From NCBI GenBank assembly GCA_959347345.1, contig OY365738.1, positions 868,001 to 932,000 on the forward strand: a stretch of DNA of 64,000 nucleotides, written 5' to 3'. Positions 2,049-63,945 of this stretch are shown in pieces. Within the stretch, counting starts at the first letter, position 1. The number at the start of each line of letters is the position of its first letter. The stretch comes from an uncultured Amylibacter sp. (GTDB lineage Bacteria; Pseudomonadota; Alphaproteobacteria; Rhodobacterales; Rhodobacteraceae). Both the position numbers and the translations under genes were made by a program. The notes beneath the pieces are model-generated. The model made no database searches and was not told where the DNA came from. It saw only the letters and a program-made list of their open reading frames with translations.

Positions 2049-2345
2049 CGATTAACGATTAATGATTAGTGGGGTCTTTTGTGCGTAGCCCCCGCTTCGC
2101 GGGAGCATGCCAAAAGCCCTATGTACAAGACGATAAGTTTGCCCTAGATTTGTTTAGGCTTTGCCTAGAAACTAGGACAGGCTAGGGTGGGCGGGCGGGC
2201 GACCGAAGATCGGGGCTTGCCCCCGAAGTGAGGGCGCAACAAAAAAGCTCTGCCCTTAACTTCTAATAACCAACCTCCAATTCCTAACAACCAATCATTC
2301 ATCGTTAATCGTTAATCGTTAATCGTTAATCGTTAATCGTTAATC
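2049..2345. repeat. Composite intergenic repeat, copy 1 (internally deleted, reverse orientation)
   Basis: Fills the gap between the converging surface-protein and gabD-like genes. It has heptamer edges (CGATTAA type on the left, ATCGTTA type on the right) and the hairpin CCCGC-TTC-GCGGG near 2090, flanked by CTTTTGTGCG and CATGCCAAAAG. It also has the AGGCTTTGCCTAG segment and the GC-rich block near 2190-2240. Compared with full copies it lacks about 100 bp of the middle, including the CCAGATAGTAAATTTAT segment. The right heptamer edge supplies the gabD stop codon. Confidence 0.85.
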
Positions 2346-3821
2346 GTTAATACCAGTGCAAACATACTTCAATTCCAAATAATCATCCATCCCATGGTGA
2401 GAGCCTTCTCGCCCTAACCCAGATTGCTTTATCCCGCCGAACGGGGCAACCTCGGTGGAAATAATCCCCGTATTCACCCCGACAATCCCGTATTCCAATC
2501 GCTCCTGCATCCGCACAACCCGCGATAAATCGTTAGAATAAAAATAACACGCCAGCCCGAATATCGTATCATTGGCGGCGGCTAGAACTTCCGATTCGCT
2601 CTCAAACCGTATTAACGGGGCCAGCGGGCCGAAGGTTTCCTCACGGCTCATAATCGCGGTTGCAGGCACATCCGCCAGCACGGTCGGCTGGAAAAACGTG
2701 CCCCCCATCGGCTCACCCCCGCACACCAGCCGCGCACCCTTGCCCAGCGCGTCGTCTATATGTGCGCGCACCTTATCCAGCCCGTTTTTATCAATCAGAG
2801 GACCAGTCGTCACGCCTTCCGTCAACCCATCGCCTATTTTCAGAGCCTGCACCGCCGTCTTCAATCGCTCGCAAAACGCGTCATACACACCCGCCTGCAC
2901 ATATATCCTGTTCGCGCAAACGCAAGTTTGCCCGTTATTGCGGAATTTGCAAATCATAGCGCCCTCCACCGCTTTGTCCAAATCGGCATCGTCAAACACG
3001 ATAAACGGCGCGTTACCGCCCAATTCCAGCGATAGTTTCATAATCTGCGGGGCGGCTTGCGCCATTAGGACGCGGCCGACTTCGGTTGACCCCGTGAAGG
3101 TCAATTTGCGCACCTTGGGGTTTTCGCAGAACTCTTTGCCTATATCGGCGGCGCGGGCAGAGGTTATCACGCTGAACACGCCCTTTGGCACGCCCGCCCG
3201 TTCCGCCAATACCGCCAGAGCCAAGGCGGACAAAGGTGTTTGCGCCGCGGGTCGTCCCACAAACGCGCAACCAGTAGCCAAAGCGGGCGCGACTTTCCGT
3301 GCAATCATCGCGCTTGGGAAATTCCATGGGGTTATGGAGCAGACGACTCCGATGGGTTGTTTCAAAACGGTAATCCGTTTGTCTGGCTGGTGGGCGGGGA
3401 TGGTTTCGCCGTAGACGCGTTTGGCTTCCTCGCCAAACCATTCGATGAAACTGGCGGCGTAGGCGATTTCGCCGAAGGCTTCTGCGATTGGTTTGCCCAT
3501 TTCGGCGGTTAATATAATGGCGAGGTCTTGTTGGTTTTCTATGATGAGGTCAAACCATTTGCGCAGGATTTGGGCGCGGTCTTTGCCCGTTCGTGCAGCC
3601 CAAGCGTGGCGGGCGGAATCGGCGGCGTTTATGGCGGTGGCCGCGTCTTTGCGTGATAAATCGGGTAGGTTGGCGAGGATGTCGCCCCGTGCGGGATTAT
3701 AGACGGGGAAGGTTTTTTTATCGGGAGCGTCGCGCCATTCGCCACCGATAAACGCCTTGCTGCACAGTAGCGATTGGTCGGTTAACAGGGAGGCTAGGTT
3801 GGTTTTGGGTTGGGTTTTCAT
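2340..3821 (-). CDS. gabD: NAD(P)-dependent succinate-semialdehyde dehydrogenase-like aldehyde dehydrogenase
   Basis: ALDH-superfamily enzyme of 493 residues, closest in pattern to GabD, which oxidises succinate semialdehyde to succinate at the end of GABA and putrescine breakdown. Visible residues are Asn167 in TPWNFP, Glu266 in LELGG and the nucleophile Cys300 in GQTCVCANR. The ATG at 3821 is chosen because AAAGGA lies 10 bases upstream and homology starts there; an in-frame extension to 3899 looks spurious. One oddity is that the normally conserved Lys of the cofactor-binding KPA motif is Arg190 (VGRPAAQTP). The last residues (IND) and the stop are encoded by heptamer repeats. The polyamine locus 35-46 kb away makes a role in putrescine catabolism plausible; other aldehydes are possible. 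Confidence 0.85.
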   Translation of the reverse strand: MKTQPKTNLASLLTDQSLLCSKAFIGGEWRDAPDKKTFPVYNPARGDILANLPDLSRKDAATAINAADSARHAWAARTGKDRAQILRKWFDLIIENQQDLAIILTAEMGKPIAEAFGEIAYAASFIEWFGEEAKRVYGETIPAHQPDKRITVLKQPIGVVCSITPWNFPSAMIARKVAPALATGCAFVGRPAAQTPLSALALAVLAERAGVPKGVFSVITSARAADIGKEFCENPKVRKLTFTGSTEVGRVLMAQAAPQIMKLSLELGGNAPFIVFDDADLDKAVEGAMICKFRNNGQTCVCANRIYVQAGVYDAFCERLKTAVQALKIGDGLTEGVTTGPLIDKNGLDKVRAHIDDALGKGARLVCGGEPMGGTFFQPTVLADVPATAIMSREETFGPLAPLIRFESESEVLAAANDTIFGLACYFYSNDLSRVVRMQERLEYGIVGVNTGIISTEVAPFGGIKQSGLGREGSHHGMDDYLELKYVCTGIND

Positions 3822-3944: not shown

Positions 3945-4055
3945 ATTAGGGGGTTTAGCCCTTCGGGTCTGCGTCATCGCTATGCGATGCCACCACGGGG
4001 TGCGCCCGCACCCTTGAGGCTAAAGCCTCTTCGGGGCGGGCGCACCGTGCCTAAC
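3945..4055. repeat. GC-rich nested hairpin module, member of the composite repeat family
   Basis: Begins with the family header TAGCCCTTCGGGTCTGCGTCAT. It then forms a small stem CATCGC-TAT-GCGATG (3975-3989) and a long hairpin. The long hairpin has outer arms GGTGCGCCCGC (3999-4009) and GCGGGCGCACC (4036-4046), a bulged A, a CCC/GGG step and an inner stem GAGGC-TAAA-GCCTC (4016-4029). It lies between divergent genes, the only copy in that setting. The same architecture with different arms occurs at 37700-37795. The remainder of the 3822-4136 gap shows nothing I recognise. Confidence 0.85.
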
Positions 4056-6389: not shown

Positions 6390-6770
6390 CGATTAACGAT
6401 TAACGATGAATGATTGGTTATTCTGGATTAGGCGTTTGTTATTAGGAGTTAAGGATAGAGGTTTTTTGTTGCGCCCTCACTTCGTTCGGTTGCCCACCCG
6501 CCCACCCCTCCTGCGGAGAGCTGGACGGGTGATTTTTGGCTAAAGCCTATCCAAGCATCTAGGCACAGCCTAAATAAATTTAGAAATTGCCTATCACCGA
6601 TTCCCAAGGTTTCTTTGCAAATAATCCACTCTACCGTCTTGTTATTCCAGATAGTAAATTTATAGAGGGCTTATCATCTTGCAACCAAAGGCTTTTGTGT
6701 ATGGGCTTTTTCGTAAGAAAAAGCTCTATATGCACAAAAGCCCCCGTTAATCGTTAATCACTAATCGTTA
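6390..6770. repeat. Composite intergenic repeat, copy 2 (forward), with variant end hairpin
   Basis: Starts directly at the secG stop with CGATTAA heptamers. It contains the GCCCTCACTTCGTTCGG block, the CCTAAATAAATTTAG inverted repeat and the CCAGATAGTAAATTTAT segment. It ends with a variant hairpin instead of the usual CCCGC/GCGGG one: outer arms GGCTTTTGTG.../...CACAAAAGCC enclose GGGCTTTTTC-GTAA-GAAAAAGCTC (about 6686-6745). Right-hand heptamers (TAATCGT, TAATCAC) precede the pyrG promoter. It separates secG from pyrG on the same strand. Confidence 0.9.
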
Positions 6771-6777
6771 ACAACGC

Positions 6778-13415: not shown

Positions 13416-13700
13416 GAATTATTTTAACTGGATTAACTGTGATTAACCATCAATAACCATCATTAACCACAAATAACCACCGTGAGTTATTTTGAGTTAT
13501 TAATTACTCAATTAACTCACTGGTGTTATTTATTAACTCAATTAACTCACATTAACTCAAGGTGAGTTATTTATTAACTCACATTAACTCAAGGTGAGTT
13601 ATTTATTAACTCACATTAACTCAAGGTGAGTTATTTATTAACTCAATTAACTCAAGGTGAGTTATTTATTAACTCAATTACTCAAGGTGAGTTATTTTAG
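13416..13700. repeat. Hairpin array: AACTCA...TGAGTT units of about 32 bp, with decamer-type lead-in
   Basis: After a short lead of TTAACTG, AACCAT and AATAACCAC decamer-like words, five units start at 13551, 13583, 13615, 13646 and 13677 with spacings of 32, 32, 31 and 31. Each contains the hairpin AACTCA-AGG-TGAGTT followed by ATTTATT. It lies just downstream of the DUF1674 gene. The neighbouring DNA (13700-13760) carries ATTCAC/ATTCAT-type short repeats. No gene is seen in the 13405-13988 gap. Confidence 0.85.
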
Positions 13701-17724: not shown

Positions 17725-19341
17725 ATGGATAAAGTGAAAAACAAGGCGAGCAAGGGGAACCTTGCTCGCCCTACCCCCAAACTTGGGGATAATACGGCGA
17801 CCAATACGGGTAGGAATTCCGATGGGGATTTCGCGTTAGAACTGCGCGGGATTTGCAAATCCTTTGGGCTGGTTCGCGCCAATCGCGATATTGATTTGAA
17901 GGTGGAAACGGGGACTATCCACGGGATTATCGGCGAAAACGGGGCGGGTAAATCCACCCTTATGAACATTCTTTACGGGTTGCATCGCGCCGATAGCGGG
18001 CAGATGTTTATCAACGGAACGGCTCAGCGAATTCGCAATGCCAGTGATGCGTTGCGGCTGGGCATAGGCATGGTGCATCAGCATTTCATGCTGGTTTCCC
18101 CCTTTAATGTGTTGGAAAACGTGATGCTGGGCAGTGAGGGCGGTGCGTTGTTAAAAGCGGGTCGTGCGGCCAGTTTAAAGACGTTGGAAAGCCTTGGGCG
18201 CAACTATGACATGGCGGTTGATCCGAACAGTTTGATTTCGGATTTGAACGTCGGCTCGCGCCAGAGGGTAGAGATTTTAAAGGCGTTAAAAGGCGGTGCG
18301 GATATTTTAATTCTGGACGAGCCAACGGGCGTTTTAACCCCGCAAGAGACCGAACAGTTATTCAAAATCCTGCGGGTTTTGCGCGATGACGGGGTGACTA
18401 TTTTACTGATTACCCATAAATTGGCGGAAATTATGGCGATAACCGATAATGTGTCGATTATGCGTGCGGGGCTGATGGTTGGGCATCGGCGGACCGCGGC
18501 GACTAGCCCTGCGGAGCTGGCGGAATTGATGGTCGGGCGACCTGTTTTATTGAATGTGAAAAAAACGCCCGCGAAAATTGGTGCGCCGATTTTGCGCGTG
18601 TCTGGGCTGGGTGCCTATTCCTCACAAGGCAATAAAATCCTTGATGGGCTGGGGTTTTCTTTGCATGAGGGCGAGATTCTTGGCATAGCTGGGGTTTCGG
18701 GCAACGGGCAGACTCCGCTGATGGAGATTTTATCGGGGATGCGCGTGCCTGACGAAGGCGGGTTTGAGTTTGACGGCGTGCAGGTGGATAAAACGCACCC
18801 GATGACTCCGCAGGCGTTGCGATTGCACGGATTGGGGCATATTCCAGAAGACCGCCACAAGCATGGGTTGATATTGGATTATACGGCGCAGGAAAATATG
18901 GTGCTGGGGTTTCATCATTTGCCACTGGCTGGGGCTGGGTTTTTTATGAATAAGGGGGCGGTTTTGGCGCATTGTTTGGCGCGGATGGATGAGTTTGATA
19001 TCCGTCCTCGCGACCCGTATTTAAAGGCGGCGCAGTTTAGCGGCGGGAATCAGCAGAAAATCGTGATAGCGCGGGAGGTTTCGGCAAATCCAAAGATGCT
19101 GATTGTCGGGCAGCCTACCCGCGGGGTGGATGTCGGGGCGATAGAGTTTATCTATAAGGAGCTGTTGGCGTTGCGGGATAAAGGCTGTGGGATTATTCTG
19201 GTGTCCGTGGAATTGGATGAGGTGATGGGGCTGGCGGATCGTATCTTGGTGATGAATGCGGGGCGCGAAGTTGGGACTATTGGCGCGGATGTGGCAACGC
19301 GGCATGCGTTGGGGATGATGATGACAGGGGTTAGTGATTAG
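17725..19341 (+). CDS. Nucleoside ABC transporter ATP-binding protein, two ABC domains
   Basis: A protein of about 538 residues with two fused ATPase domains, typical of BMP-linked nucleoside and simple-sugar transporters. The first domain has GENGAGKST (Walker A) and ILILDEPTGVLTPQE. The second has GVSGNGQTPL, where the Walker-A Lys is absent as is usual for the degenerate second domain of this group, and FSGGNQQKIVIAREV. The start is uncertain: ATG 17725 has GGTGGA eight bases upstream, and ATG 17689 is also in frame. The last residues (VSD) and the stop are encoded by heptamer repeats. The matching permeases lie immediately beyond the repeat on the opposite strand. Confidence 0.9.
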   Translation: MDKVKNKASKGNLARPTPKLGDNTATNTGRNSDGDFALELRGICKSFGLVRANRDIDLKVETGTIHGIIGENGAGKSTLMNILYGLHRADSGQMFINGTAQRIRNASDALRLGIGMVHQHFMLVSPFNVLENVMLGSEGGALLKAGRAASLKTLESLGRNYDMAVDPNSLISDLNVGSRQRVEILKALKGGADILILDEPTGVLTPQETEQLFKILRVLRDDGVTILLITHKLAEIMAITDNVSIMRAGLMVGHRRTAATSPAELAELMVGRPVLLNVKKTPAKIGAPILRVSGLGAYSSQGNKILDGLGFSLHEGEILGIAGVSGNGQTPLMEILSGMRVPDEGGFEFDGVQVDKTHPMTPQALRLHGLGHIPEDRHKHGLILDYTAQENMVLGFHHLPLAGAGFFMNKGAVLAHCLARMDEFDIRPRDPYLKAAQFSGGNQQKIVIAREVSANPKMLIVGQPTRGVDVGAIEFIYKELLALRDKGCGIILVSVELDEVMGLADRILVMNAGREVGTIGADVATRHALGMMMTGVSD

Positions 19342-19864
19342 TGATTAGTGATTAGTGATTAGTTTTTTTGTCACTTCTTGGCTGGTCGGCATTTCGAAGA
19401 AATGACGAAGACCCGCAGGGCTAAATAATGATGAATGATTGGTTATTAGAGATTAGGAGTTGGTTATTAGAAGTTAAGAGCGGAGGTTTTTTGTTTCGCC
19501 CTCACTTCGTTCGGTTGCCCGCCCGCCCACCCCTCCTGCGGAGAGCTGGACGGGGTTTTATGGCTAAAGCCTGTCCTAACATCTAGGCACAGCCTAAATA
19601 AATTTAGAAATAGCCTATCGCCAATTCCCAAGTATTCTTTGCAAATAATCCAATTTATAGTCTTGTTATTCCAGATAGTAAATTTATGACAATCTTATCA
19701 TCTTGTAACCAAAGGGCTTTTGGCATGCTCCCACGAAGTGGGGGCTACGCACAAAAGACCACGCTGGTCGGTATTGCGTAGCAATGACGAAGACCCGCAG
19801 GGCTATTAATCACTCACCACTAATCACTAATCACTCACCACTAATCACTAATCACTAACAACTC
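19335..19864. repeat. Composite intergenic repeat, copy 3 (forward, near complete)
   Basis: Best full-length example. It runs from left heptamers GTGATTA through the small stem CATTTC-GAA-GAAATG (19390-19404), an AGACCCGCAGGGCT stem and the CCCTCACTTCGTTCGG block with the CCACCCCTCCTGCGG tract. It continues with CCTAAATAAATTTAG, CCAAGTATTCTTTGCAAATA, CCAGATAGTAAATTTAT and the GGGCTTTTGGCATGC hairpin. It ends with GACCACGCTGGTC, a second small stem ATTGC-GTA-GCAAT, a second AGACCCGCAGGGCT and right heptamers TAATCAC. It sits between converging transporter genes. Confidence 0.93.
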
Positions 19865-26060: not shown

Positions 26061-26320
26061 GATTAACCACAAATAACCACGATTAACCACGATTAACCAA
26101 CAATAACCACGATTAACCACGATTAACCAACAATAACCACAAATAACCAACAATAACCACGATTAACCACGATTAACCAACAATAACCACAAATAACCAA
26201 GATTAACCAAGATTAACCAACAATAACTAAGATTAACCAAGATTAACCAAGATTAACCAACAATAACTAAGATTAACCAAGATTAACCAACAATAACCAC
26301 AAATAACCAAGATTAACCAC
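26061..26320. repeat. Array of 26 contiguous decamers in perfect 10-bp phase
   Basis: Twenty-six ten-base units follow each other without one insertion or deletion. The types are GATTAACCAM, AAATAACCAM and CAATAACYAM (M = A or C), each carrying the core TAACCA or TAACTA. The order of types is irregular, often two GATTAAC units followed by one CAATAAC unit. It lies downstream of the EamA gene and upstream of the MFS gene in a 644-bp gap with no coding potential. Confidence 0.95.
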
Positions 26321-26600
26321 AGGTGGTTATTTTGGTTAATCATTAACTCAATTAACTCAGGTGAGTTATTTTGAGTTATTTTTAACTCAAGTGAGTTATT
26401 TTTAACTCAAGTGAGTTATTTTTAACTCCGATTAACTCAAGTGAGTTATTTTGAGTTATCGCAGTTATCCATTAACTCAATTAACTCAATTAACTCACAT
26501 TGAGTTATTTCAGTTATTCAATAACTGGATTAACTGCCCCAGTTATTTTTAACTGAAATTAACTGCGATTAACTGCCCCCAGTTATTTTTAGGTATTGAC
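26311..26600. repeat. String of short hairpins with changing arms
   Basis: Following the decamers is a series of stem-loops of common design. They are AACCAC-AG-GTGGTT (26315-26328), several AACTCA-(GG or AG)-TGAGTT, and AACTG-CCC-CAGTT and related forms toward 26590. All are spaced by TTATTTTTAACT-like DNA. Heptamer repeats (TAATCAC) continue to about 26645. The same AACTCA hairpins occur at 13551-13700. Confidence 0.88.
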
Positions 26601-28397: not shown

Positions 28398-30716
28398 ATG
28401 GCCATATTCACCACCACCCTTGAAAACGCTATCCACAGCGCGTTGGACATTGCCAACTCCCACAGGCATGAACTCGCCACGCTGGAACACCTACTGCTGG
28501 CTCTGGTGGATGAGGATGACGCAGGGCGTTTGCTCCAATCCTGCAAGGTCAATCTGGACGTATTACGGCGCAAACTCCACGCCTATCTGGAAAACGAACT
28601 CGCCGATTTAATCCAAACCACGCAGGACACCAGCGCGACCCCGACCACTGGTTTTCAGCGAGTCATCCAACGCGCGGTTCTGCATGTCCATGGCACGGGG
28701 CGACCGAACGTGACGGGCGCGAATGTCATAGTCGCCCTGTTTGCCGAACGCGAAAGCCACGCCACCTATTTCCTGCAAGAACAGGACATGACGCGGTTTG
28801 ATGCGGTCAATTACCTGGCCCATGGGATTGCCAAAGATGGCAGTGATACCCGCGATGTTCTCAGTGCGGATGGCGATGAATCGCCTGACCATGATGATGC
28901 CACGCAACCCGCGCAAAAATCCGCGCTGGATAAATACTGTGATAATTTGAACGAACGGGCGGCGCAGGGGCGGATTGATCCGCTGATTGGGCGCACGGAT
29001 GAATTGCAACGATGCGTCCAAATCCTCTGCCGTCGGCGGAAGAATAACCCGATAATGGTCGGCGATCCGGGGGTTGGCAAAACCGCGATAGCCGAAGGCT
29101 TGGCACTGCATATTATTGAGAAGAAAACCCCCGATATCCTGCATAATCACACGATTTACGCGCTGGATATGGGCGCGCTCATGGCGGGAACACGCTATCG
29201 CGGGGATTTTGAGGAAAGATTGAAAAATGTAATGGATGAATTGCAAGCCGTAGAAAATTCCATCCTGTTTATCGATGAAATCCATACTATCATAGGTGCG
29301 GGCGCGGCCAGTGGCGGGGCTATGGATGCCTCTAACCTGCTGAAACCCGCCTTGCAAAACGGGGTTTTGCGGTGCATTGGGTCAACGACCTACAAAGAAT
29401 TCCGCCAGCATTTTGAAAAAGACCGCGCCTTGGCGCGTCGCTTTCAAAAAATCGATGTGGGCGAGCCGACCGTCACCGATAGTATCAAGATTTTAAAGGG
29501 GTTAAAGGCGAATTTTGAAAAGCATCACAATGTGAAATACACGGCAGAGGCGATGAAAACCGCCGTGGAGCTGTCCGTACGCTATATTCATGACCGCAAA
29601 TTGCCCGATAAGGCGATTGATGTGATTGATGAGGCGGGTGCCGCCTTTCAAATCGTTGCCAAACTGGGCGATAAGGCGAAAACCATAGGTGTCACGGATA
29701 TCGAATCCATCATTGCCAAAATCGCGCGGATACCGGCCAAATCCATCTCCAAAGACGATGCAAAACAACTGGCAGAGCTGGAAGACGCGCTGAAACGGGT
29801 GGTTTTTGGGCAGGATACGGCGATTGAAGCCTTGTCTTCGGCGATAAAACTGTCGCGGGCGGGCTTGCGCGAACCCGAAAAACCGATAGGCAGTTATCTT
29901 TTTGCGGGTCCCACAGGGGTTGGCAAAACCGAAGTCGCACGGCAATTGGCGGCGACCTTGGGCGTGGAGCTTTTGCGGTTTGACATGTCCGAATATATGG
30001 AAAAACACGCGATTAGTCGGCTGATTGGCGCGCCCCCGGGCTATGTCGGGTTTGACCAAGGCGGGCTTTTGACGGATGGTGTCAATCAAACCCCCTATTG
30101 CGTTTTGCTGCTGGATGAGATTGAAAAAGCCCACCCAGATGTGTTCAATATATTGCTGCAAGTCATGGACAACGGCAAGCTGACCGACCACAGCGGGCGC
30201 AGCACGGATTTCCGCAATGCGATTATTATTATGACCTCCAATGCTGGGGCGAGGGAACTGGCACAGGCGAACATAGGATTCGGGCGTGGCAAGCGTACGG
30301 GCGATGATACACAGGCGATAGAGCGGTTGTTTAGTCCCGAATTCCGCAATCGGCTGGACGCGATTATCAGTTTTGGCGCGTTAGGTTTGGACACGATTCA
30401 TAAGGTCGTGGATAAGTTTATCTTGCATTTGGAGGCGCAGTTAATGGAACGTAATGTGACCTTTGAGCTGAGCGCGGCGGCGATGGATTGGCTGGCGCGT
30501 GCGGGCTATGACGAGGTGATGGGGGCGCGGCCTCTGGCGCGGGTTATTCAGGAGCATATTAAAAAACCCTTGGCGGACGAGCTGTTATTCGGGCGGTTAG
30601 CCAAGGGCGGATTGGTGAAGGTGACTTTGAAAAAGGGCGCGTTGGATTTGCAGTTAGAACCGATTGAACGGCGGAAGATTACGAAGAGTAAGCAGAGGTT
30701 GCTGACGGCTAAATAG
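28398..30716 (+). CDS. clpA: ATP-dependent Clp protease ATP-binding subunit ClpA
   Basis: A 772-residue AAA+ unfoldase that works with ClpP. It has an N-terminal adaptor-binding domain (about 1-150, LEHLLLALVDEDDA), D1 with GDPGVGKTAIAEG near residue 221 and ILFIDEIHTIIGAG, and D2 with AGPTGVGKTEVARQ near 503 and CVLLLDEIEKAHPD. It lacks the long middle coiled coil of ClpB, which places it as ClpA. A strong AAAAGGAG ribosome-binding site precedes ATG 28398. No clpS is seen next to it. The stop TAG joins the first heptamer of a composite repeat. Confidence 0.95.
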   Translation: MAIFTTTLENAIHSALDIANSHRHELATLEHLLLALVDEDDAGRLLQSCKVNLDVLRRKLHAYLENELADLIQTTQDTSATPTTGFQRVIQRAVLHVHGTGRPNVTGANVIVALFAERESHATYFLQEQDMTRFDAVNYLAHGIAKDGSDTRDVLSADGDESPDHDDATQPAQKSALDKYCDNLNERAAQGRIDPLIGRTDELQRCVQILCRRRKNNPIMVGDPGVGKTAIAEGLALHIIEKKTPDILHNHTIYALDMGALMAGTRYRGDFEERLKNVMDELQAVENSILFIDEIHTIIGAGAASGGAMDASNLLKPALQNGVLRCIGSTTYKEFRQHFEKDRALARRFQKIDVGEPTVTDSIKILKGLKANFEKHHNVKYTAEAMKTAVELSVRYIHDRKLPDKAIDVIDEAGAAFQIVAKLGDKAKTIGVTDIESIIAKIARIPAKSISKDDAKQLAELEDALKRVVFGQDTAIEALSSAIKLSRAGLREPEKPIGSYLFAGPTGVGKTEVARQLAATLGVELLRFDMSEYMEKHAISRLIGAPPGYVGFDQGGLLTDGVNQTPYCVLLLDEIEKAHPDVFNILLQVMDNGKLTDHSGRSTDFRNAIIIMTSNAGARELAQANIGFGRGKRTGDDTQAIERLFSPEFRNRLDAIISFGALGLDTIHKVVDKFILHLEAQLMERNVTFELSAAAMDWLARAGYDEVMGARPLARVIQEHIKKPLADELLFGRLAKGGLVKVTLKKGALDLQLEPIERRKITKSKQRLLTAK

Positions 30717-31170
30717 TTATTAGTTGTTAGTTATTAGTTATTAGTTTTTTAGCCCTTGCGGGTCTTCGTAATCGCTTACGCGATACCGACCAGCGTGGTC
30801 TTTTGTGCGTAGCCCCCGCTTCGCGGGAGCATGCCAAAAGCCCTTGGGTTACAAGACTATATTTTTTCTATAAATTTACTATCTGGAATAACAAGACGTT
30901 AGAGTGGATTATTTGTTTAGAATACTTGGGAATTGGTGATGGGTTTGCTCTAAATTTATTTAGGCTTTGCCTAGATACAAAGACAGACCCTAGCAAATAA
31001 AACCCGTCCGCCCAAGCCTCGCAGAGGGGTGGGCGGGCGGGAAGCCCGAACGCAGGGGCTTGCCCCGAAGTGAGGGCGAAACAAAAAACCTCCGCTCTTA
31101 ACCTCTAATAACCAACCCACAATTCTTAATAACCAATCACTAATAACTAACAACTAATAACTAATAACTA
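30713..31170. repeat. Composite intergenic repeat, copy 4 (reverse)
   Basis: Lies between converging clpA and the OmpA-like gene. Read in reverse, the order of modules is heptamers GTTATTA, AGCCC-TTGC-GGGTCT stem, AATCGC-TTAC-GCGAT stem, GACCA-GCG-TGGTC, CCCGC-TTC-GCGGG hairpin, TAAATTTACTATCTGG, ATTTATTTAGG, CCGCCC tract and CTTCACTTCG-type block. It ends in heptamers CTAATAA that reach the stop codon of the OmpA-like gene. Confidence 0.92.
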
Positions 31171-33950: not shown

Positions 33951-34895
33951 ATGAAACGATATTCTATTCCCGCGCTGATCGCGGTTATTGTGATTTGCGC
34001 GATTGGCTGGTCGGTTTATTGGGTTATTGGCGGGCGGATTATGGACGAACGCGTGGAACGCTGGCTGGATTTCCCTGCCGATTCGAACTGGAGTGTGGCG
34101 TATGATAGTGTCGCGTTGGCGGGCTATCCCAATCGGTTTGATACGACCGTAACGGGGTTTGAATTGCGTCATAAGGACAGCGAGGCGGCTTGGCGGATTA
34201 ACCCGTTGCGCCTGTTTGCGTTAAGCTATCAACCGCAGAAATTCATCGCCGTTTGGCCTGCCGAGCAGACCGTTACCCTGCCACGCGGGGGGGTGGTGGA
34301 TGTTTTCACCGATGATATGCGCGCCAGCATGTCGTTTGCGGACTCGGCGTTGCCATACGAAGCGGTGATGAGCATAAAGGGTGCGCTTTTGGCAACCCCC
34401 ATGGGTGCCGTGCCGATAGAGGACGTTTTGCTTGCGATGCGGGCGGTGGATTCGGGGGATGGTGCGGATTACGATGTGGATATGCGGGTGGATGGGTTAT
34501 ATTTGCCCGTTCAGGATGAGCCGAGCCGTATTGACGGTCATATTCGGGCGCGAGTCGTGATGGATGAGGCACGAGTGGATATAATGTCCAGCAATGTACG
34601 GTTAGAGGGCGTGGTTTTGCAAGCCACGGGCAGTTTGCAAACCGATGCCGATGGCTATCTTATCGGCGATTTATCCGTTGCCGTGCAGAATTATACCGAA
34701 TTACCCGCGTTATTGGCGGTTTATGGGGTGATAAAACCGACTATGGCGGCGAGGGTAGGCAAGACTCTGTCGTTTATCAGTGCGCTGGCGTTGGATAAAT
34801 CCCGTGTGTCCGTGCCGTTGCGGTTTGACGGGGGCAAGATGTATCTGGGACCCTTGCCGATTGGGGAGGCACCGCGTTTAGTTATTAGTTATTAG
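33951..34895 (+). CDS. DUF2125 domain-containing protein
   Basis: A 314-residue protein with an N-terminal signal anchor (residues about 4-24, ALIAVIVICAIGWSVYWVI) and a periplasmic beta-rich domain with the family's VALAGYPNRFDTTVTGFEL pattern. Function of DUF2125 is not established. ATG 33951 has AAAGGAG just upstream. The C-terminal residues LVISY and the TAG stop are encoded by heptamer repeats, so the natural C-terminus has been replaced or extended by the repeat. It is divergent from the MotA-like gene. Confidence 0.82.
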   Translation: MKRYSIPALIAVIVICAIGWSVYWVIGGRIMDERVERWLDFPADSNWSVAYDSVALAGYPNRFDTTVTGFELRHKDSEAAWRINPLRLFALSYQPQKFIAVWPAEQTVTLPRGGVVDVFTDDMRASMSFADSALPYEAVMSIKGALLATPMGAVPIEDVLLAMRAVDSGDGADYDVDMRVDGLYLPVQDEPSRIDGHIRARVVMDEARVDIMSSNVRLEGVVLQATGSLQTDADGYLIGDLSVAVQNYTELPALLAVYGVIKPTMAARVGKTLSFISALALDKSRVSVPLRFDGGKMYLGPLPIGEAPRLVISY

Positions 34896-35325
34896 TTATT
34901 AGTTGTTAGTGATTGGTTATTGAGAATTGTGGGTTCGTTATTAGAGATTACGAGTAGAGGTTTTTTGTTGCGCCCTCACTGCGTTCGGTTGCCCACCCGC
35001 CCACCCCTCCTGCGGAGTGCGGGCGTGCGGGGTTTTGTGGCTAAAGCCTGTCCAAGCATCTAGGCATAGCCTAAATAAATTTAGAGCAACCCTATCACCG
35101 ATTCCCAAGTATTCTTTGCAAATAATCCACTCTATAATCTTGTTATTCCAGATAGTAAATTTATGACAAACCTAGCATCTTGTAACCAAAGGGCTTTTGG
35201 CATGCTCCCGCGAAGCGGGGGCTACGCACAAAAGACCACGCTGGTCGGCATTCGCGCAAGCGATGACGAAGACCCGCAAGGGCTAAAAAACTAACAACTA
35301 ACAACTAATAACTAATAACTAACAA
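34879..35325. repeat. Composite intergenic repeat, copy 5 (forward)
   Basis: Full-length copy between converging DUF2125 and alcohol dehydrogenase genes. It holds the CCCTCACTGCGTTCGG block, CCTAAATAAATTTAG, CCAGATAGTAAATTTAT, the CCCGCGAAGCGGG hairpin, GACCACGCTGGTC, a stem CATTCGC-GCAA-GCGATG and AGACCCGCAAGGGCT. The heptamer edges encode the last residues of both flanking proteins (VISY on the left, VSC on the right). Confidence 0.93.
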
Positions 35326-36374
35326 CTAACCAAAACCACCTTCGCCGCCCGAACTCCCCCTGCCAAAATATCATCAAACGCCTGCGCACCCTCCGCCAAA
35401 GCCCGCGTTTCCACCCACCGTTCCGTATCATAGCGACCATCAAAAATCGCCTGCGTTGTCGCCTCAAAATCCGCCTTAGTATAGGTATAAGTGCCGATAA
35501 ACGTCACCTCCTGCAAGGTTGCACGGCGGATATCCAGCCCACCATCGCTATCACCCAAACCGATATGCACGATGACTCCGCCCGCCGCAACCAAACGGCT
35601 GGCATCGCTGCGAGTCGCCGCATATCCAACCGCGTCAATCACCAAATCATACGCGCCCGTATCGCCCGATTTATCGCGCGGATGAAACGCACACAGCCCG
35701 TCAAACGCCGCCAAAGCATCACGGCGCAAATCATTCGGCTCCGCCACATCCACCTGCGCACACCCCCATAATTGCAGAGTTAAAGCCGCGCCGACACCTA
35801 TCGCCCCGCCGCCTATCACCAAGCATCGCGCCCGCTCCAGCCCACCGAAAACCGCATCCCCAGCCAAACGCACGGCGTGCCAGCAAACCGCCAAAGGTTC
35901 CGCCAGAGCCGCCCGCACATAGGACACCGAATCGGGGATAACAATCAAACTATCGCTCGGCATAGTCAGAAATTCCGCCATAGCACCCATCCTCGGCGGG
36001 ATGGAAATAATCGTGCGGGTGGGGCAAAGGTTCGCCCGACCCGTATTACAATACCGACAATTCCCACACGAAATCAGGGGATTAACGCAGACTCGCGCGT
36101 TTTTCATAGGGCCCGCGATGACTCGCCCAGCCGCCTCATGCCCCAGAATTAACGGCGGAGGTCGGCGCGAATCATGCCCCAAATACCCGTGCAAATCAGA
36201 CCCGCAAATCCCAACCGCCCGCACCGCAATAAGATTATCATCGCCTTGTGGCACGGGACGCGGGAATTTCCCCATCTGTATCGTGCGCGGGGAGGTATAA
36301 ATAAGGGCGTTCATAGTATCTGGCATAGTATCTGGCAAAGCATCAGTCATAGTATCATTCATAGCATCCGTCAT
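35319..36374 (-). CDS. Zinc-dependent alcohol dehydrogenase (MDR family)
   Basis: A 351-residue medium-chain dehydrogenase. Catalytic zinc residues are Cys57 (GICGSDLHG) and His79-Glu80 (LGHEAAG). The structural zinc cysteines are 103, 106, 109 and 117 (CGNCRYCNTGRANLC). The Rossmann motif is VIGGGAIGVGAAL. The N-terminus is extended by a low-complexity run of MTDA/MNDT/MPDT words encoded by short DNA repeats. The ATG at 36374 has GGAAAGA upstream, whereas the later ATG at 36314 has no ribosome-binding site. Substrate is unknown; threonine- and polyol-dehydrogenase-like enzymes share this pattern. It is divergent from potF. Confidence 0.88.
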   Translation of the reverse strand: MTDAMNDTMTDALPDTMPDTMNALIYTSPRTIQMGKFPRPVPQGDDNLIAVRAVGICGSDLHGYLGHDSRRPPPLILGHEAAGRVIAGPMKNARVCVNPLISCGNCRYCNTGRANLCPTRTIISIPPRMGAMAEFLTMPSDSLIVIPDSVSYVRAALAEPLAVCWHAVRLAGDAVFGGLERARCLVIGGGAIGVGAALTLQLWGCAQVDVAEPNDLRRDALAAFDGLCAFHPRDKSGDTGAYDLVIDAVGYAATRSDASRLVAAGGVIVHIGLGDSDGGLDIRRATLQEVTFIGTYTYTKADFEATTQAIFDGRYDTERWVETRALAEGAQAFDDILAGGVRAAKVVLVSC

Positions 36375-36548: not shown

Positions 36549-37664
36549 ATGATTAACTCAATAAAACCCACACTAAAACCCATAATAACCCTCACCGCAA
36601 CAGCCACCGCCCTCGCGTTATCGGCTTTTACCGCACAGGCGCAGGAATTGCGCATCTATAACTGGTCGGATTACATCGCCGAGGACACGATTGAAAAGTT
36701 TGAAAAACAAACGGGCATCACGGTGACCTATGACGTGTTTGACAGCAACGAAGTGCTGGAGGCTAAATTACTCGCGGGCGCGTCTGGCTATGACATAGTC
36801 GTGCCGACCTCCGATTTCCTGCAACGCCAAATCGCCGCGGGTATTTACCAAAAGCTGGACAAATCCAAGCTGCCCAATTTGAAAAACATGGACGCGGATT
36901 TGATGGCGAACGCGGCGACTTACGATACGGATAACGCCCATTCGGTCATATATTTATGGGGGACGACGGGTATTGGCTATAATATCAAAGCTGTGCGCGA
37001 ACGGCTGGGCGATGATTACGAGATCAACAGCTGGGATATGGTTTTTAACCCCGAAAACGCCGCGAAACTGGCGGATTGCGGGATTTCCATGCTGGATGCC
37101 CCGACCGAGGTTATCCCTGCGGCGGCGAACTATCTGGGCTATAACCCGAATACGGAAGACGCTGGCGAGTTGCGTGAGGCTGCGGAGTTGCTGTCCGCCG
37201 TGCGCCCCTATGTTCGGTATTTCCATTCCTCGCAATATATCAACGATTTGGCGAATGGCGATAGTTGCGTTGCGGTCGGCTGGTCTGGCGATGTTTTCAT
37301 AGCCCAAGCCCGCGCGGATGAGGCGGAAAACGGGGTGGAAATTGATTATTTCATTCCCCGTGAAGGTGCGTTGCAATGGTTTGACATGCTGGCTATCCCT
37401 GCGGATGCGCCGAATGTGGATGCCGCCCATGCGTTTATTAATTTCCTGATGGAGCCTGAGATTACGGCGGATATAACGAACTATGTTTGGTATGGGTCTG
37501 CTAATCAGGCGGCTTTGCCGTTGATTGATGAGGAGATTTTGGAGAACGAGGGGATATTCCCATCCGCCGCCGCGAAGGAGAATTTATGGGGGGGCGAGGT
37601 TGTGTCTATCAAATCTGACCGTTTGCGGACGCGGTTATGGACGAAGATAACAACCGGGCAATAG
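36549..37664 (+). CDS. potF: Polyamine-binding periplasmic protein
   Basis: A 371-residue extracellular solute-binding protein of the PotD/PotF type (spermidine/putrescine). The signal peptide ends near residue 32 (LSAFTAQAQ/ELRIYNW). Family features are LRIYNWSDYIAEDTIEKFEKQTG, YDIVVPTSDFLQRQI, YLWGTTGIGYN and the C-terminal AHAFINFLMEPEI. AAGGAG precedes the ATG. It is the first gene of the transporter operon, but a whole composite repeat separates it from potG. The neighbouring catabolic genes support putrescine as substrate (inference). Confidence 0.93.
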   Translation: MINSIKPTLKPIITLTATATALALSAFTAQAQELRIYNWSDYIAEDTIEKFEKQTGITVTYDVFDSNEVLEAKLLAGASGYDIVVPTSDFLQRQIAAGIYQKLDKSKLPNLKNMDADLMANAATYDTDNAHSVIYLWGTTGIGYNIKAVRERLGDDYEINSWDMVFNPENAAKLADCGISMLDAPTEVIPAAANYLGYNPNTEDAGELREAAELLSAVRPYVRYFHSSQYINDLANGDSCVAVGWSGDVFIAQARADEAENGVEIDYFIPREGALQWFDMLAIPADAPNVDAAHAFINFLMEPEITADITNYVWYGSANQAALPLIDEEILENEGIFPSAAAKENLWGGEVVSIKSDRLRTRLWTKITTGQ

Positions 37665-38121
37665 TTATTAGTTATTAGTTATTAGTTGTTAGTGGCTTTA
37701 GCCCTTCGGGTCTGCGTCATTTCTTTGAAATGCCACCACGGGGCGCGCGCTTGACTCTTGGAGCAAGCTCCTGCGAGCAAGCGCGCGCCCAAAGCCTGTC
37801 CTAGCGTCTAGGCAAAGCCTAAATAAATTTAGAAAGTGCCTATCGCCAATTCCTAAGTATTCTTTGCAAATAATCCACTCTATAATCTTGTTATTCCAGA
37901 TAGTAAATTTATGATAAAACTATCGTCTTGAAACCAAAGGGCTTTTGGCATGCCCTCACACCGTGAGGGCTACGCACAAAAGACCACGCTGGTCGGCACT
38001 CGCGTAAGCGATGACGAAGACCCGCAGGGCTAAAACCATTTGACAATTCATCACTAATCACTAATAACTAATAACTAACAACTAATAACTAACAACTAAC
38101 AACTAATAACTAACAACTAAA
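37662..38121. repeat. Composite intergenic repeat, copy 6 (forward), inside the pot operon, with large GC hairpin
   Basis: Begins at the potF stop and ends at the potG start codon. The left part carries TAGCCCTTCGGGTCTGCGTCAT, the stem CATTTC-TTT-GAAATG (37718-37732) and a long hairpin. The hairpin has arms GGGCGCGCGCTTG (37741-37753) and CAAGCGCGCGCCC (37778-37790), a bulged A, a CTC/GAG step and an inner stem GGAGC-AA-GCTCC (37760-37771). The rest is the usual CCTAAATAAATTTAG to CCGACCAG series with many right-hand heptamers. Confidence 0.93.
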
Positions 38122-39207
38122 ATGCCTCCCTTCATCCAAATCCGCAATGTCACAAAGTCCTTCGGCCAAGTCCTCGCCGTTGATAATATCACGCTAGACA
38201 TCCAGCAAAACGAATTGTTCTGCCTGCTGGGCGGGTCGGGTTGCGGCAAAACCACCCTGCTGCGTATGCTCGCGGGGTTTGAAATGCCAACCACTGGGCA
38301 AATCCTGATTGACGGGCAGGACATGCAAAACCTACCCCCCCAAGCGCGCCCCACGAACATGATGTTCCAATCCTACGCCCTGTTCCCGCACATGAGCGTT
38401 GCCAAAAATGTGGGCTATGGACTCAAACGCGCAGGCACCCCTGCCCCAGAAATCCGCGAAAAGGTCGCCGAAATCCTGAACCTAGTCCAACTGGGCGGCT
38501 ATGAAACCCGCAAACCGCACCAATTATCGGGCGGACAACAGCAACGGGTCGCGCTCGCCCGTGCCTTGATCAAACGCCCGAAACTCTTACTACTAGACGA
38601 ACCGCTGGGCGCGTTGGACAAGAAACTCCGCGAAGAAACCCAGTTTGAACTGATAAACATCCAAGAATCGCTGGGCGTCACCTTTGTTGTCGTCACCCAC
38701 GATCAAGAGGAAGCCATGACCCTATCCACCCGCCTTGGCGTGATGCAAAACGGGCGGTTATCGCAGGTTGGCACGCCCCACGAAATCTACGAATACCCGC
38801 AGAGCCGTTATGTCGCCGATTTCATCGGCTCTATCAATTTATTCGAAGGGCGGGTGAAAAAATCGGCCCCCGACCACCTGCGTATAACCAGCGAGGATAC
38901 CGCCGTTGATATCCATCTATCGCACGGCGCGGGCTTCCGCACGGATCAAGAGGTCTGCTTTGCTCTGCGCCCCGAAAAGGTGGAAATCGCACGGAAAAAA
39001 CCGCCACAATCGTTCAATTATGCCAAAGGCGTGGTCGAGGACATAGCCTATCTGGGCGGGCGTTCGGTCTATCTGGTACGTACCAAATCGGGCAAATTGC
39101 TGCGGGTGACCCGCGCCAATCGCCAACAAACCTCAACGCCGATAACTTGGGAGGATAGCGTTTATCTGCACTGGTCTGACAAGGCGGGTGTGGTGTTAAG
39201 CGGGTGA
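38122..39207 (+). CDS. potG: Polyamine ABC transporter ATP-binding protein
   Basis: A 361-residue ATPase of the spermidine/putrescine importer. Walker A is GGSGCGKTTLLR, the signature is LSGGQQQRVALARAL, Walker B is LLLLDEPLGALD and the switch His is VVTHDQEEA. A C-terminal TOBE-type domain follows (about 270-361). The start codon directly abuts heptamer repeats and has no ribosome-binding site, so the repeat seems to have displaced the normal leader. It continues into potH after 16 bp. Confidence 0.93.
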   Translation: MPPFIQIRNVTKSFGQVLAVDNITLDIQQNELFCLLGGSGCGKTTLLRMLAGFEMPTTGQILIDGQDMQNLPPQARPTNMMFQSYALFPHMSVAKNVGYGLKRAGTPAPEIREKVAEILNLVQLGGYETRKPHQLSGGQQQRVALARALIKRPKLLLLDEPLGALDKKLREETQFELINIQESLGVTFVVVTHDQEEAMTLSTRLGVMQNGRLSQVGTPHEIYEYPQSRYVADFIGSINLFEGRVKKSAPDHLRITSEDTAVDIHLSHGAGFRTDQEVCFALRPEKVEIARKKPPQSFNYAKGVVEDIAYLGGRSVYLVRTKSGKLLRVTRANRQQTSTPITWEDSVYLHWSDKAGVVLSG

Positions 39208-43171: not shown

Positions 43172-43660
43172 GTGTTTAGTTGTTAGTTATTAGTTATTAG
43201 TTGTTAGTGGCTTTAGCCCTTCGGGTCTGCGTCATCGCTACGCGAATGCCGACCAGCGTGGTCTTTTGTGCGTAGCCCCCACTTCGCGGGGGCATGCCAA
43301 AAGCCCTTTGGTTGCAAGATGATAGGGATTCTATAAATTTGCTATCTGGAATAACAAGACGTTAGATTGGATTATTTGCAAAGAATACTTGGGAATTGGT
43401 GATAGGTTTGCTCTAAATTTATTTAGGCTGTGCCTAGATGCTCGGATAGGCTTTAGCCAAAAAATCCCGTCCAGCTCATTATTTTTATTTTCGGGCAGGT
43501 TCAACTGCCCTTGTAGGAGGGGTGGGCAGGTGGGCAACCGAACGCAGTGAGGGCGCAAGCAAAAAACCTCTATCCTTAACTTCTAATAACCAAACCCACA
43601 ATTCTTAATAACCAATCACTAATAACTAACAACTAACAACTAACAACTAATAACTAATCA
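43168..43660. repeat. Composite intergenic repeat, copy 7 (reverse), with nested palindrome
   Basis: Between converging aminotransferase and agmatinase genes. It has the usual reverse-order modules: AGCCCTTCGGGTCT, CATCGC-TAC-GCGAATG stem, GACCA-GCG-TGGTC, CCACTTCGCGGGGG hairpin, CTATCTGGAATAACAAG and ATTTATTTAGG. In the GC-rich block near 43477 a nested GGGCAG/CTGCCC module has been inserted. The right heptamers supply the agmatinase stop and its last two residues. Confidence 0.92.
43477..43515. repeat. Nested palindromic module GGGCAG-GTTCAA-CTGCCC, copy a
   Basis: A run of T and A (ATTATTTTTATTTT) followed by the 18-bp hairpin at 43493-43510. It interrupts the block that in other copies reads CCAGCTCTCCGCAGGAGG. 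Copies b and c are at 46750-46786 and 63827-63864. Confidence 0.85.
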
Positions 43661-44604
43661 CTAATCGTTTCTTTGGCAAGCAAACACAACCAATCATACC
43701 CAACCGTAGCCGCCGCCAAGGCGGTAATCTCAGCGCAATCATAGGCGGGGGCAACCTCCACAATATCCATCCCAATCAGGTTCATCCCGCCCAACCCGCG
43801 AATGAATTCTAACGCTTGCCAACTAGCCAGACCGCCACAAACGGGCGTGCCAGTGCCGGGCGCGAAGGCGGGATCCAACCCGTCTATATCAAACGAAATG
43901 TACAAAGGCGCGTCCCCCGCCCTCGCCCTTACGACCTCCAAAACCGCGTCAATCCCATTGCGATGAATCCACGGCGCATCCAAAATTCGAAACCCAAAAT
44001 CCGTGTCATTAAACGTCCGCAACCCAACCTGCGTTGATTTTGCGACATCAATCACACCCTCCGCCACGCCCCGCGCGAACATAGTCCCGTGGTCTAACCC
44101 GCCCTCATCTGGCCACGTATCGCAATGCGCATCAAACTGCACCAGAGCAACCGGTCCATACTTTTCCGCGTGGGCGCGAATTAACGGCAAAGCGACAAAA
44201 TGATCCCCGCCGAGCGATAACATCTTTGCCCCACTTGCGATGATTTCCCGTGCGTGGGCGGCTATGTCAGTCGGCACAGACTCCGCATGATGCGGGTTCA
44301 AATGGCAATCGCCATAATCAATAACCGCCAGTGTTTCAAAGGGATTAAACCCATGCGGAAAGGATTTTAATTCCGCCAATTGGGTGGAGGCAGCACGGAT
44401 AGCTCGCGGGCCAAGCCGTGCGCCACTGCGGTTCGTCGTGGCGCAATCATAAGGGATACCCGTGACTGCCACGTCTATATTATTAAGGTCGCGAGAGTAC
44501 CGACGGCGGGCAAAACTGAGCGCACCTCCATAAGTCATTTCAGCCCAAGCCTCATTATTATTTTGTCCACGGAAGGCGAAATCACCTTTGTTCTTTTCGG
44601 TCAT
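43654..44604 (-). CDS. speB: Agmatinase / ureohydrolase
   Basis: A 316-residue manganese ureohydrolase. The metal-binding residues are all present: His135 (GGDHF), Asp158, His160 and Asp162 (QFDAHCDTW), and Asp239 and Asp241 (SFDIDGLDP). The pattern fits agmatinase, agmatine to putrescine plus urea; guanidinobutyrase or another ureohydrolase is an alternative. It is transcribed after the PuuA-like ligase, 91 bp away on the same strand. It ends in repeat-encoded residues (SD). With the transporter and aminotransferase it forms a polyamine locus. Confidence 0.9.
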   Translation of the reverse strand: MTEKNKGDFAFRGQNNNEAWAEMTYGGALSFARRRYSRDLNNIDVAVTGIPYDCATTNRSGARLGPRAIRAASTQLAELKSFPHGFNPFETLAVIDYGDCHLNPHHAESVPTDIAAHAREIIASGAKMLSLGGDHFVALPLIRAHAEKYGPVALVQFDAHCDTWPDEGGLDHGTMFARGVAEGVIDVAKSTQVGLRTFNDTDFGFRILDAPWIHRNGIDAVLEVVRARAGDAPLYISFDIDGLDPAFAPGTGTPVCGGLASWQALEFIRGLGGMNLIGMDIVEVAPAYDCAEITALAAATVGYDWLCLLAKETISD

Positions 44605-53227: not shown

Positions 53228-53699
53228 AAGGGGTAGTTGTTAGTTGTTAGTTATTAGTTGTTAGTTATTAGTGAATCCGCCCTTCGGGTCTTCGTCATCG
53301 CTTACGCGAGTGCCGACCAGCGTGGTCTTTTGTGCGTAGCCCCCGCTTCGCGGGAGCATGCCAAAAGCCCTTGGGTTTCAAGACGCTAGGGATTCTATAA
53401 ATTTACTATCTGGAATAACAAGACTATAAATTGGATTATTTGTTTAGAATACTTGGGAAATGGCGATAGGCTATTTCTAAATTTATTTAGACTATATACA
53501 AGACGCTGAACCAAACCCCAGCCAAAAAAATCCGTCCAGCTCTCCGCAGGAGGGGTGGGCGGGCGGGAAGCCCGAGCGAAGTGGCTTGCCACGAAGTGAG
53601 GGCGCAACAAAAAACCTCTATCCTTAACTCCTAATAACGAACCCCAAATCGCTAGCAACCAATAACTAACAACTAACAACTAATAACTAATAACTAAAA
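53228..53699. repeat. Composite intergenic repeat, copy 8 (reverse), inside the cox operon
   Basis: Lies between ctaG and coxC, both on the minus strand. It has heptamers GTTATTA, GCCCTTCGGGTCTTCG, the stem CATCGC-TTAC-GCGAGTG, GACCA-GCG-TGGTC, CCCGC-TTC-GCGGG, TTTACTATCTGG, ATTTATTTAG, the CTCCGCAGGAGG block and right heptamers ending two bases before the ctaG stop. The open frame on its minus strand recurs in other copies but looks non-functional. Confidence 0.92.
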
Positions 53700-53700
53700 T

Positions 53701-54255
53701 CTAATCGCTCACATGAAACGTATAGGACAAAGTCACCGCCCGCACGGCCTGTGCGTCTTCATCCGTCATCATATCCGCGTCAATAAAGAACGTCACGGGC
53801 ATCTGCACGCGCTCCCCCGCTTCCAAAACCTGCTTTTGGAAACAAAAACACTCAATCTTAGAAAAATATGACCCCATACTATACGGATAAACATTGAAAG
53901 TCGCCTGCCCCGCGGTGGGCGCGTCGGTGGGGTTGTAGGCCTCGTAAAATATGGTTACAGTCTCACCAATCCGCACTTCCACCTTGCGATCAACGGGGGC
54001 GAATTCCCACGGCATATCTTCCGCCAAGGACGCATCAAAACGCACCTCCATCGTTTCTTCCAAAATCGGTCCGTTGCCACTGGTGGCGATTTGGGTGACC
54101 CCGCCAAAGCCCGTGACTTGGCAAAACCACTGGTACAACGGCACGGATAAAAACGCCAAAACCAGCATCCAAGCCGCTAGTCCAAAGCATAAAAATGCTG
54201 TACGTAGGGGTTTTGGGGATTTTTTTTGTGGCTCTTGTGGCTCTTCGGTTTTCAT
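53701..54255 (-). CDS. ctaG: Cytochrome c oxidase assembly protein CtaG (Cox11-like)
   Basis: A 184-residue membrane-anchored copper chaperone for the CuB site. One helix (about 18-40), then a beta-sandwich periplasmic domain with the copper-binding CFCF motif, Cys136 and Cys138 in KIECFCFQKQ, and Cys45 near the membrane. FFIDADMMTDEDAQAVRAVTLSYTF at the end is typical. Order in the operon: after ctaB and a small membrane protein, before coxC. Confidence 0.95.
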   Translation of the reverse strand: MKTEEPQEPQKKSPKPLRTAFLCFGLAAWMLVLAFLSVPLYQWFCQVTGFGGVTQIATSGNGPILEETMEVRFDASLAEDMPWEFAPVDRKVEVRIGETVTIFYEAYNPTDAPTAGQATFNVYPYSMGSYFSKIECFCFQKQVLEAGERVQMPVTFFIDADMMTDEDAQAVRAVTLSYTFHVSD

Positions 54256-63434: not shown

Positions 63435-63499
63435 TGGCGGGGGTGTTCCTTTTTGTGGGATTGTTTTTTGTGGATATAAATGGAAAAGGGCGGATTGTA

Positions 63500-63945
63500 A
63501 ATAGTGATTAGTTATTAGAGGTTAAGAGCAGAGGTTTTTTGTTGCGCCCTCACTGCGTTCGGTTGCCCGCCCGCCCACCCCTCCTGCGGAGAGCTGGACG
63601 GGCTATTTTTTGGCTGGGGTTTGGCTCAGCGTCTTGTATATAGTCTAAATAAATTTAGAACTTACCCATCACCACTTCCCAAGTATTCTTTGCAAATAAT
63701 CCAATCTAACGTCTTGTTATTCCAGATAGTAATTTTATAGAATCACTATCGTCTTGAAACCAAAGGGCTTTTGGCATGCCCCCACGAAGTGGGGGCTACG
63801 CACAAAAGACCATGCTGGTCGGCATTCATTATTTTATTTTACGGGCAGGTTCAACTGCCCTATGGAGCGATGACGAAGACCCAAAGGGCATCACTAATCA
63901 CTAATAACTAATAACTAATAACTAATAACTAATAACTAACAACTA
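63500..63945. repeat. Composite intergenic repeat, copy 9 (forward), with nested palindrome
   Basis: Upstream of aspS and at the 3' end of the next minus-strand gene. It contains the CCCTCACTGCGTTCGG block, the CCGCCCACCCCTCCTGCGG tract, CTAAATAAATTTAG, CCAGATAGTAATTTTAT and the CCCACGAAGTGGGGG hairpin with GGGCTTTTGGCATGC. It also has GACCATGCTGGTC and a small stem whose loop is occupied by the GGGCAG/CTGCCC module. Right heptamers (CTAATAA) run into the stop of the neighbouring gene. Confidence 0.92.
63827..63864. repeat. Nested palindromic module GGGCAG-GTTCAA-CTGCCC, copy c
   Basis: An ATTATTTTATTTTAC stretch followed by the hairpin at 63843-63860. It sits between GTCGGCATTC and GAGCGATGACG, inside what is a 3-4 base loop in the other copies. 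Confidence 0.85.

Follow-up and report, generated by a model that had tools for sequence, protein, structure and literature searches.

Small dispersed repeats and heptamer STRR repeats are found in cyanobacteria, and mosaics of palindromes are covered by the BIME nomenclature. In REP families, following the parts of Di Nocera et al. (2013; PMC3733652) used here, a conserved tag with stems carrying alternative complementary residues is the rule, and G-T pairs are taken as a sign of transcription. According to the same parts, CGTC-tagged REPs prevail in alphaproteobacteria, apparently without a dedicated transposase, and consist of a palindrome right behind a tag ending in CGTC, with a stem of 8–9 bp, a loop of 4–5 nt and a tail that is mostly CCA; they occur in high copy number and as head-to-head dimers. 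GTAG-tagged REPs, BIMEs and REPINs, which go with a RAYT (TnpA-REP) transposase, combine a tag with imperfect, bulged hairpins in intergenic palindrome mosaics and inverted doublets (PMC3116915 and PMC8266576, in the passages used). For the E. coli TnpA-REP, these passages of PMC8266576 describe the GTAG tag and the bulge as required, and stem contacts of which a few are specific and several are not. Intergenic 7-bp arrays of the TAACTGA type, holding stops in all frames, were described from Beggiatoaceae, cyanobacteria and Bacteroidetes; in the sections of MacGregor (2015; PMC4679880) concerned, some overlap gene ends and some lie directly upstream of starts, most sets being upstream of starts. 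Template switching in replication can produce multi-base compensatory changes, by which perfect stems can be made or kept in one step (Monttinen and Loytynoja 2022; PMC8794818, sections on compensatory change). It is a mutation mechanism and not an element.

The window studied here is the whole 64-kb stretch of DNA that was analysed. Its host is, as judged from sequence similarity, a Rhodobacteraceae-like alphaproteobacterium (nearest TopA relative among 14 loci: Amylibacter marinus, 67%). Two large hairpins in the window are read here, with about even confidence, as palindromic modules of a lineage-restricted, REP/BIME-like, non-autonomous intergenic repeat family whose stems are rewritten at the DNA level. 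This family is considered REP-like because published REP families are recognised by a tag that is conserved and by stems that differ yet stay complementary.

Anatomy of the two large hairpins

Two nested hairpins with a common header and different arms had been drawn in the preliminary description, and both were present as drawn. Their parts are as follows.

3957–3977, plus strand: header, copy 1 (AGCCCTTCGGGTCTGCGTCAT)
3975–3989, plus strand: linker hairpin, copy 1 (CATCGC-TAT-GCGATG)
3999–4046, plus strand: large nested hairpin, copy 1, with 11+3+5 pairs, subjected to folding and pairing tests
37700–37720, plus strand: header, copy 2
37718–37732, plus strand: linker hairpin, copy 2 (CATTTC-TTT-GAAATG)
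37741–37790, plus strand: large nested hairpin, copy 2, with 13+3+5 pairs, subjected to folding and pairing tests

The units from header to hairpin span 3957–4048 and 37700–37790, and both carry the same 21-nt header. Arm pairing was Watson-Crick throughout (19/19 in copy 1, 21/21 in copy 2), with 0 G-T pairs and 0 mismatches in the 40 pairs, and the bulged A and the TT of the internal loop are common to both hairpins. Upon folding, 20 of the 21 pairs of copy 2 closed, one being left open because the 2-nt loop is too small. DNA folding gave z values of −4.8 to −5.6, and 0/200 shuffles were as stable for both strands of both copies; for RNA folding, z was −3.4 to −5.3, and among 200 shuffles the number as stable was 0, 1, 0, and 0. 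The window contains 25 perfect inverted repeats whose arms measure at least 9 and whose spacers measure at most 45, against 7, 14, and 11 under three first-order nulls. Copy 2 has the longest arm among these (13), and copy 1 (11) is tied for second with three others. As a separate observation, tandem decamer and 32-mer arrays at 13442–13700 and 26061–26600 contain palindromes with joint arm change (AACTCA/TGAGTT, AACCAC/GTGGTT, AACTG/CAGTT).

Between copies 1 and 2, respectively, the loops read TAT and TTT in the linker, TTC and TGC in the internal loop, and TAAA and AA at the apex, and copy 2 has two additional outer pairs. Differences were found at 0/27 flanking bases (18 nt of the header plus CCACCACGG) vs 18/50 paired bases (Fisher P = 1.4e-4, for paired counts entered by hand, a partition set after seeing the sequence and a header flank that may contain a 3–4 bp stem). 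Loop bases as well as stems vary between the copies, which counts against the reading as stems rewritten at the DNA level. Anchoring at the outer end, picked by eye for maximal identity, gave 19 comparable pairs; 12 are identical, and in the other 7, five of which are transitions, both sides differ. A count of seven double and no single changes restates the pairing, as perfectly paired hairpins can differ only on both sides. When the bulge was used as anchor, just 2/11 outer pairs agreed, so homology of the outer arms is anchor-dependent. This last figure favors an unlikely explanation in which ready-made, different palindromes were placed behind one leader and the arms never co-evolved. That the bulge and the greater part of the internal loop are kept, together with the 12/19 identical pairs under the outer anchor chosen by eye, suggests common descent of the two hairpins instead.

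Linker hairpins and a mosaic intergenic repeat

The 21-nt header, with at most 3 mismatches, matched 8 times in the window (0.00 expected), an occurrence beyond chance. A looser pattern identified 10 headers in the 64-kb window, a large hairpin following only 2/10; that there are just two such hairpins counts against the DNA-level reading. The linker behind the header (CATCGCTATGCGATG or CATTTCTTTGAAATG) is a further small covarying hairpin that had been missed in the preliminary description. Its stem is CAT-CGC-loop-GCG-ATG in most copies, with TTC/GAA in two and TGC/GCA in one. For the alignment, 9/10 header copies (8 distinct) were used, the tenth (63813–63890) being left out for an insertion there. 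In these 9 copies, pairing holds for 95.8% of cells, and covariation is seen at two pairs. Covariation score, cells changed on both sides and percentage paired were each reached by 0/500 shuffles, values that kinship among the copies can lift over shuffles without selection. Sliding the structure along the alignment resulted in scores of at most 0.119 vs 0.321 in place. The number of covarying pairs was reached by 205/500 shuffles and the number of pair types by 453/500; two of the five measures are thus not above shuffles, which counts against the preferred reading. The outermost pair is mismatched in 2/9 copies, which counts against it as well.

Comparison with CGTC-tagged REPs was based on these linker copies. 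A CGTC tag stands directly 5′ of the palindrome in 8/9 aligned copies (CGTA in the copy at 30762), and AT at stem positions 1–2, paired A-U and U-A, was found in 8/8 distinct copies, both as in CGTC-tagged REPs. Complementary stem variation, intergenic position, frequent location downstream of genes and the lack of a reported dedicated transposase are likenesses as well (PMC3733652, parts used). The linker stem of 5–6 bp and loop of 3–4 nt fall short of the described sizes, and its tail is CCA in 2/9 copies and CCG in 7/9. Among the 10 headers in 64 kb there is one inverted pair, with tags outside (37700 plus, 38011 minus) and about 300 bp apart. The family further differs in a longer conserved header, in the large hairpin that two copies carry in addition, and in a 300–530 bp mosaic with heptamer arrays. 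Because tag and AT agree, stem length does not, and tail and dimers are ambiguous, it is called REP-like and not a member of the CGTC-tagged REPs; this partial agreement counts against the preferred reading. From GTAG REPs, with which it shares the general layout given above, it differs in that no GTAG directly precedes the hairpins, the stems are longer and no RAYT (Y1_Tnp) is found in the 45 window genes. Transposase families were represented by 0 of these 45 accepted genes (35 scanned with Pfam, 10 with NCBIfam), a further point against the preferred reading; a Y1 transposase was found in 1/5 related genomes.

Hairpin 2 lies inside one of about nine intergenic mosaics of 300–530 bp in the window, referred to as repeat R. 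Most copies consist of chains of small palindromes round a conserved AT-rich body, with inverted 7-bp arrays at both bounds. Together they amount to about 4.0 kb; the 45 accepted genes leave 10.4 kb uncovered, and R makes up about 39% of this, some ends having been set by hand. The copy with hairpin 2 starts at 37662 and the other copies at the first positions given below.

2049–2351, plus strand: R copy with much of the body missing, ends set by hand
6390–6775, minus strand: R copy with a different h3, its outer arms perfect over 10 bp; ends set by hand
19331–19863, minus strand: R copy with two same-direction headers
30714–31170, plus strand: R copy lying between two convergent genes, clpA and one with an OmpA domain
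34878–35330, minus strand: R copy
37791–38031, minus strand: R body at hairpin 2, comprising hairpins, the conserved AT-rich body and a second, inverted header (38011–38031)
43176–43665, plus strand: R copy whose hairpin h5 has a mini-palindrome at its tip
53234–53705, plus strand: R copy between ctaG and cox3
63470–63945, minus strand: R copy whose linker hairpin holds a mini-palindrome; ends set by hand

Upstream of the first copy, a large reading frame (54–2048) with no Pfam match contains internal repeats about 700 bp apart.

Hairpin h3 was compared in 8 copies, 37/45 columns being invariant and all variable ones lying in the apical stem and its loop. Its two covarying pairs were matched by 43/500 shuffles, pair 17-31 is open in 5/8 copies and pair 21-27 in 1/8; both this weak covariation and the mismatches count against the preferred reading. 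Outside the 6390 copy, the outer h3 arms have 6 pairs and a bulge.

Several features of R bear on the placement of ready-made palindromes. The mini-palindrome GGGCAGGTTCAACTGCCC, with its AT-rich side, occurs at 43494, 46766, and 63844, two of these being R hairpin tips and one being near a gene start. Insertion of whole palindromes had been put forward as an alternative in the preliminary description, and the presence of this one sequence at the tips of hairpins in two copies of R gives it some support. The same direction is indicated by GGGGCTTGCCCC and GTGGCTTGCCAC, palindromic inserts found at a single position of two R copies, and by module recombination, suggested by the same-direction headers at 19345–19804 and the inverted ones at 37700 and 38011.

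A role as intrinsic transcription terminators between genes is very improbable. The large hairpins were rejected as terminators, the feature of a GC hairpin followed by a T-run not being found for them. They are GC-rich and intergenic, as a terminator would be, and several R copies lie between convergent genes. The vicinity of copy 1 gave 0 terminator-like matches (0.4 in shuffles), and that of copy 2 gave 1 (0.9 in shuffles), located in the small R hairpin GACCAGCGTGGTC, which is followed by TTTTG. Moreover, two R copies are situated between co-directional, syntenic genes (potF-potG and ctaG-cox3), a position that argues against terminators and suits an element of inter-cistronic RNA, considered below.

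Heptamer arrays and gene ends

The R copy with hairpin 2 is bounded by two inverted arrays.

37662–37695, plus strand: left heptamer array (TTAGTTA type), the first TAG being the potF stop codon
38051–38120, minus strand: right heptamer array, made up of 10 units; 1 nt separates it from the start codon of potG (38122)

Further examples are located at 30714–30746, 31127–31170, and 53652–53705, and the units are of the TTAGTTA, TTAATCG, and TTAGTGA types. The region upstream of potG is the array itself (38051–38122). The potF-potG spacer, with one array beginning at the potF stop codon and the other stopping 1 nt short of the potG start, measures 457 nt here vs 84–115 nt in 11 relatives. The distance between the cox3 start and the last CtaG residue that aligns is 80–86 nt in 3/3 relatives; here it is 78 nt plus a repeat of about 470 bp. 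At both loci the extra length is, according to these alignments, absent from the relatives.

Within 3 nt of a stop codon, 11 of the 18 period-7 arrays were found, and 1 within 3 nt of a start codon. Random intergenic placement gave means of 1.3 stops and 1.5 starts, and 11 stops were reached in 0/5000 draws. Stop codons of 11/45 genes sit at arrays, an association that is partly forced because every frame meets a stop within an array, so that an open frame running into one must end there. Comparison with relatives at potF, clpA, and ctaG is, as far as aligned sequences tell, better evidence than the stop count. The C-terminus of PotF coincides with the end in relatives, the array beginning from that stop, at 11/12 loci (the twelfth is cut by a contig end), and the same holds for ClpA at 8/8 loci; the PotF loci were drawn from 28 genomes that gave a match and the ClpA loci from 29. 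CtaG is without the last 18–19 residues of its relatives (3/3), and its stop lies inside the array. Like the TAACTGA sets, the arrays are intergenic and in part adjoin gene ends or starts. They differ in mostly touching stops, in forming inverted pairs round palindromes, and in their units (PMC4679880, sections used).

These bounds also allow a rather unlikely alternative, a new class of intergenic mobile element formed by palindrome mosaics between inverted heptamer arrays. Such an element would settle at stop codons, occupy spacers up to the next start and keep rewriting its stems as matched arms, spread by a putative single-strand DNA process.

Origin of the matched arms

If the hairpins are REP/BIME-like modules rewritten at the DNA level, the mark of a module would be its conserved leader, the header ending in CGTCAT, behind which the stems would have to be palindromic and could otherwise be free in sequence. 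Modules may spread via single-stranded hairpin DNA, with foldable hairpins being favored for spreading. Joint arm change could arise when one arm is recopied from the other by template switching on an imperfect palindrome, or when the palindrome is replaced as a unit. A DNA-level process is favored over selection on RNA because change is confined to the hairpins, with 0/27 in the flanks, and no G-T pair occurs; rewriting is favored also because one h3 copy has perfect arms and the others are bulged. The restriction of h3 variation to its apex, the mini-palindrome in two hairpin tips, the extra length at ctaG-cox3 and potF-potG, and the tag and stem variation published for REPs likewise speak for a REP-like family of this kind. 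In the sections of PMC8794818 used, multiple compensatory changes were enriched over simulation and single ones were not, the latter counting against this reading. A structured-RNA function is not needed.

The preliminary description had taken the matched changes as pointing to selection on an RNA or cruciform structure. The first part of that argument stands, in that arms drifting independently would no longer match in full, and the linker covariation adds modest support. The second part does not follow from matched change alone, as template switching and REP stem variation give the same pattern. On the RNA explanation, modules in 3′ untranslated or inter-cistronic RNA would act as an mRNA stabiliser or as a processing or protein-binding site, and compensatory mutations would keep the helices. 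This we consider unlikely. The linker score reached by none of the shuffles in 9 copies is in its favor, as is the retention, between the large hairpins, of the bulged A and some internal-loop bases (TT, T-C). Counting against it, there are 0 G-U among the 40 large-hairpin pairs, though compensatory change is commonly thought to go via G-U (PMC8794818, same sections), and the flanks of the two copies are unchanged. In h3, each variable A-C mismatch corresponds to G-U on the other strand (only two sites), and G-T pairs in REPs have been read as evidence of transcription, as noted above. Rfam gave 0 matches at gathering score in the window and, for one repeat copy, none up to E 5. Three Rfam matches at copy 1, all far below gathering score, were rejected.

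Searches for other carriers gave absences that are weak, because no known carrier genome served as positive control and several searches scored part of the candidates. The exact header plus CCACCACGGGG pattern had 0 matches in genome_contigs (one genome per species, 84,980 species; contigs of at least 3 kb) and 0 in viral_contigs, where the R body and h3 patterns gave 0 as well. With a looser pattern, 7 viral loci were obtained, three with a 33-base BLAST match to the window; 7/7 were read as chance, the stretches inspected showing neither a heptamer array nor any header outside the pattern. Plasmids and phages gave no repeat match. By BLAST, the repeat was found in 0/8 genomes. In 394 family genomes (2 candidates per genome scored), there was 1 match of 36 bp, and follow-up in the genus of that match gave 1/1, of 25 bp; from the DNA itself and a short-word BLAST, both were read as chance in coding sequence. 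Within the genus Amylibacter, with all candidates scored, the repeat was present in 0/33 genomes, and the heptamer array pattern in 0/394 family genomes. A covariance model of the header gave 1 match (27 bits) in 33 genomes with at most 150 candidates each, rejected on finding no repeat in the 240 nt round it. In 390 genomes under stricter filters (17 candidates each), the model gave 1 uninspected match (31 bits), read as chance.

Compensatory change is widely taken as proof of functional RNA. Dense palindromes within one genome, with joint arm change and fixed flanks, would suit the measurement of covariation that arises by DNA copying without RNA selection. The arrays at stop codons suggest a way for intergenic repeats to occupy the ends of genes at low cost, even where both neighbors run in the same direction.
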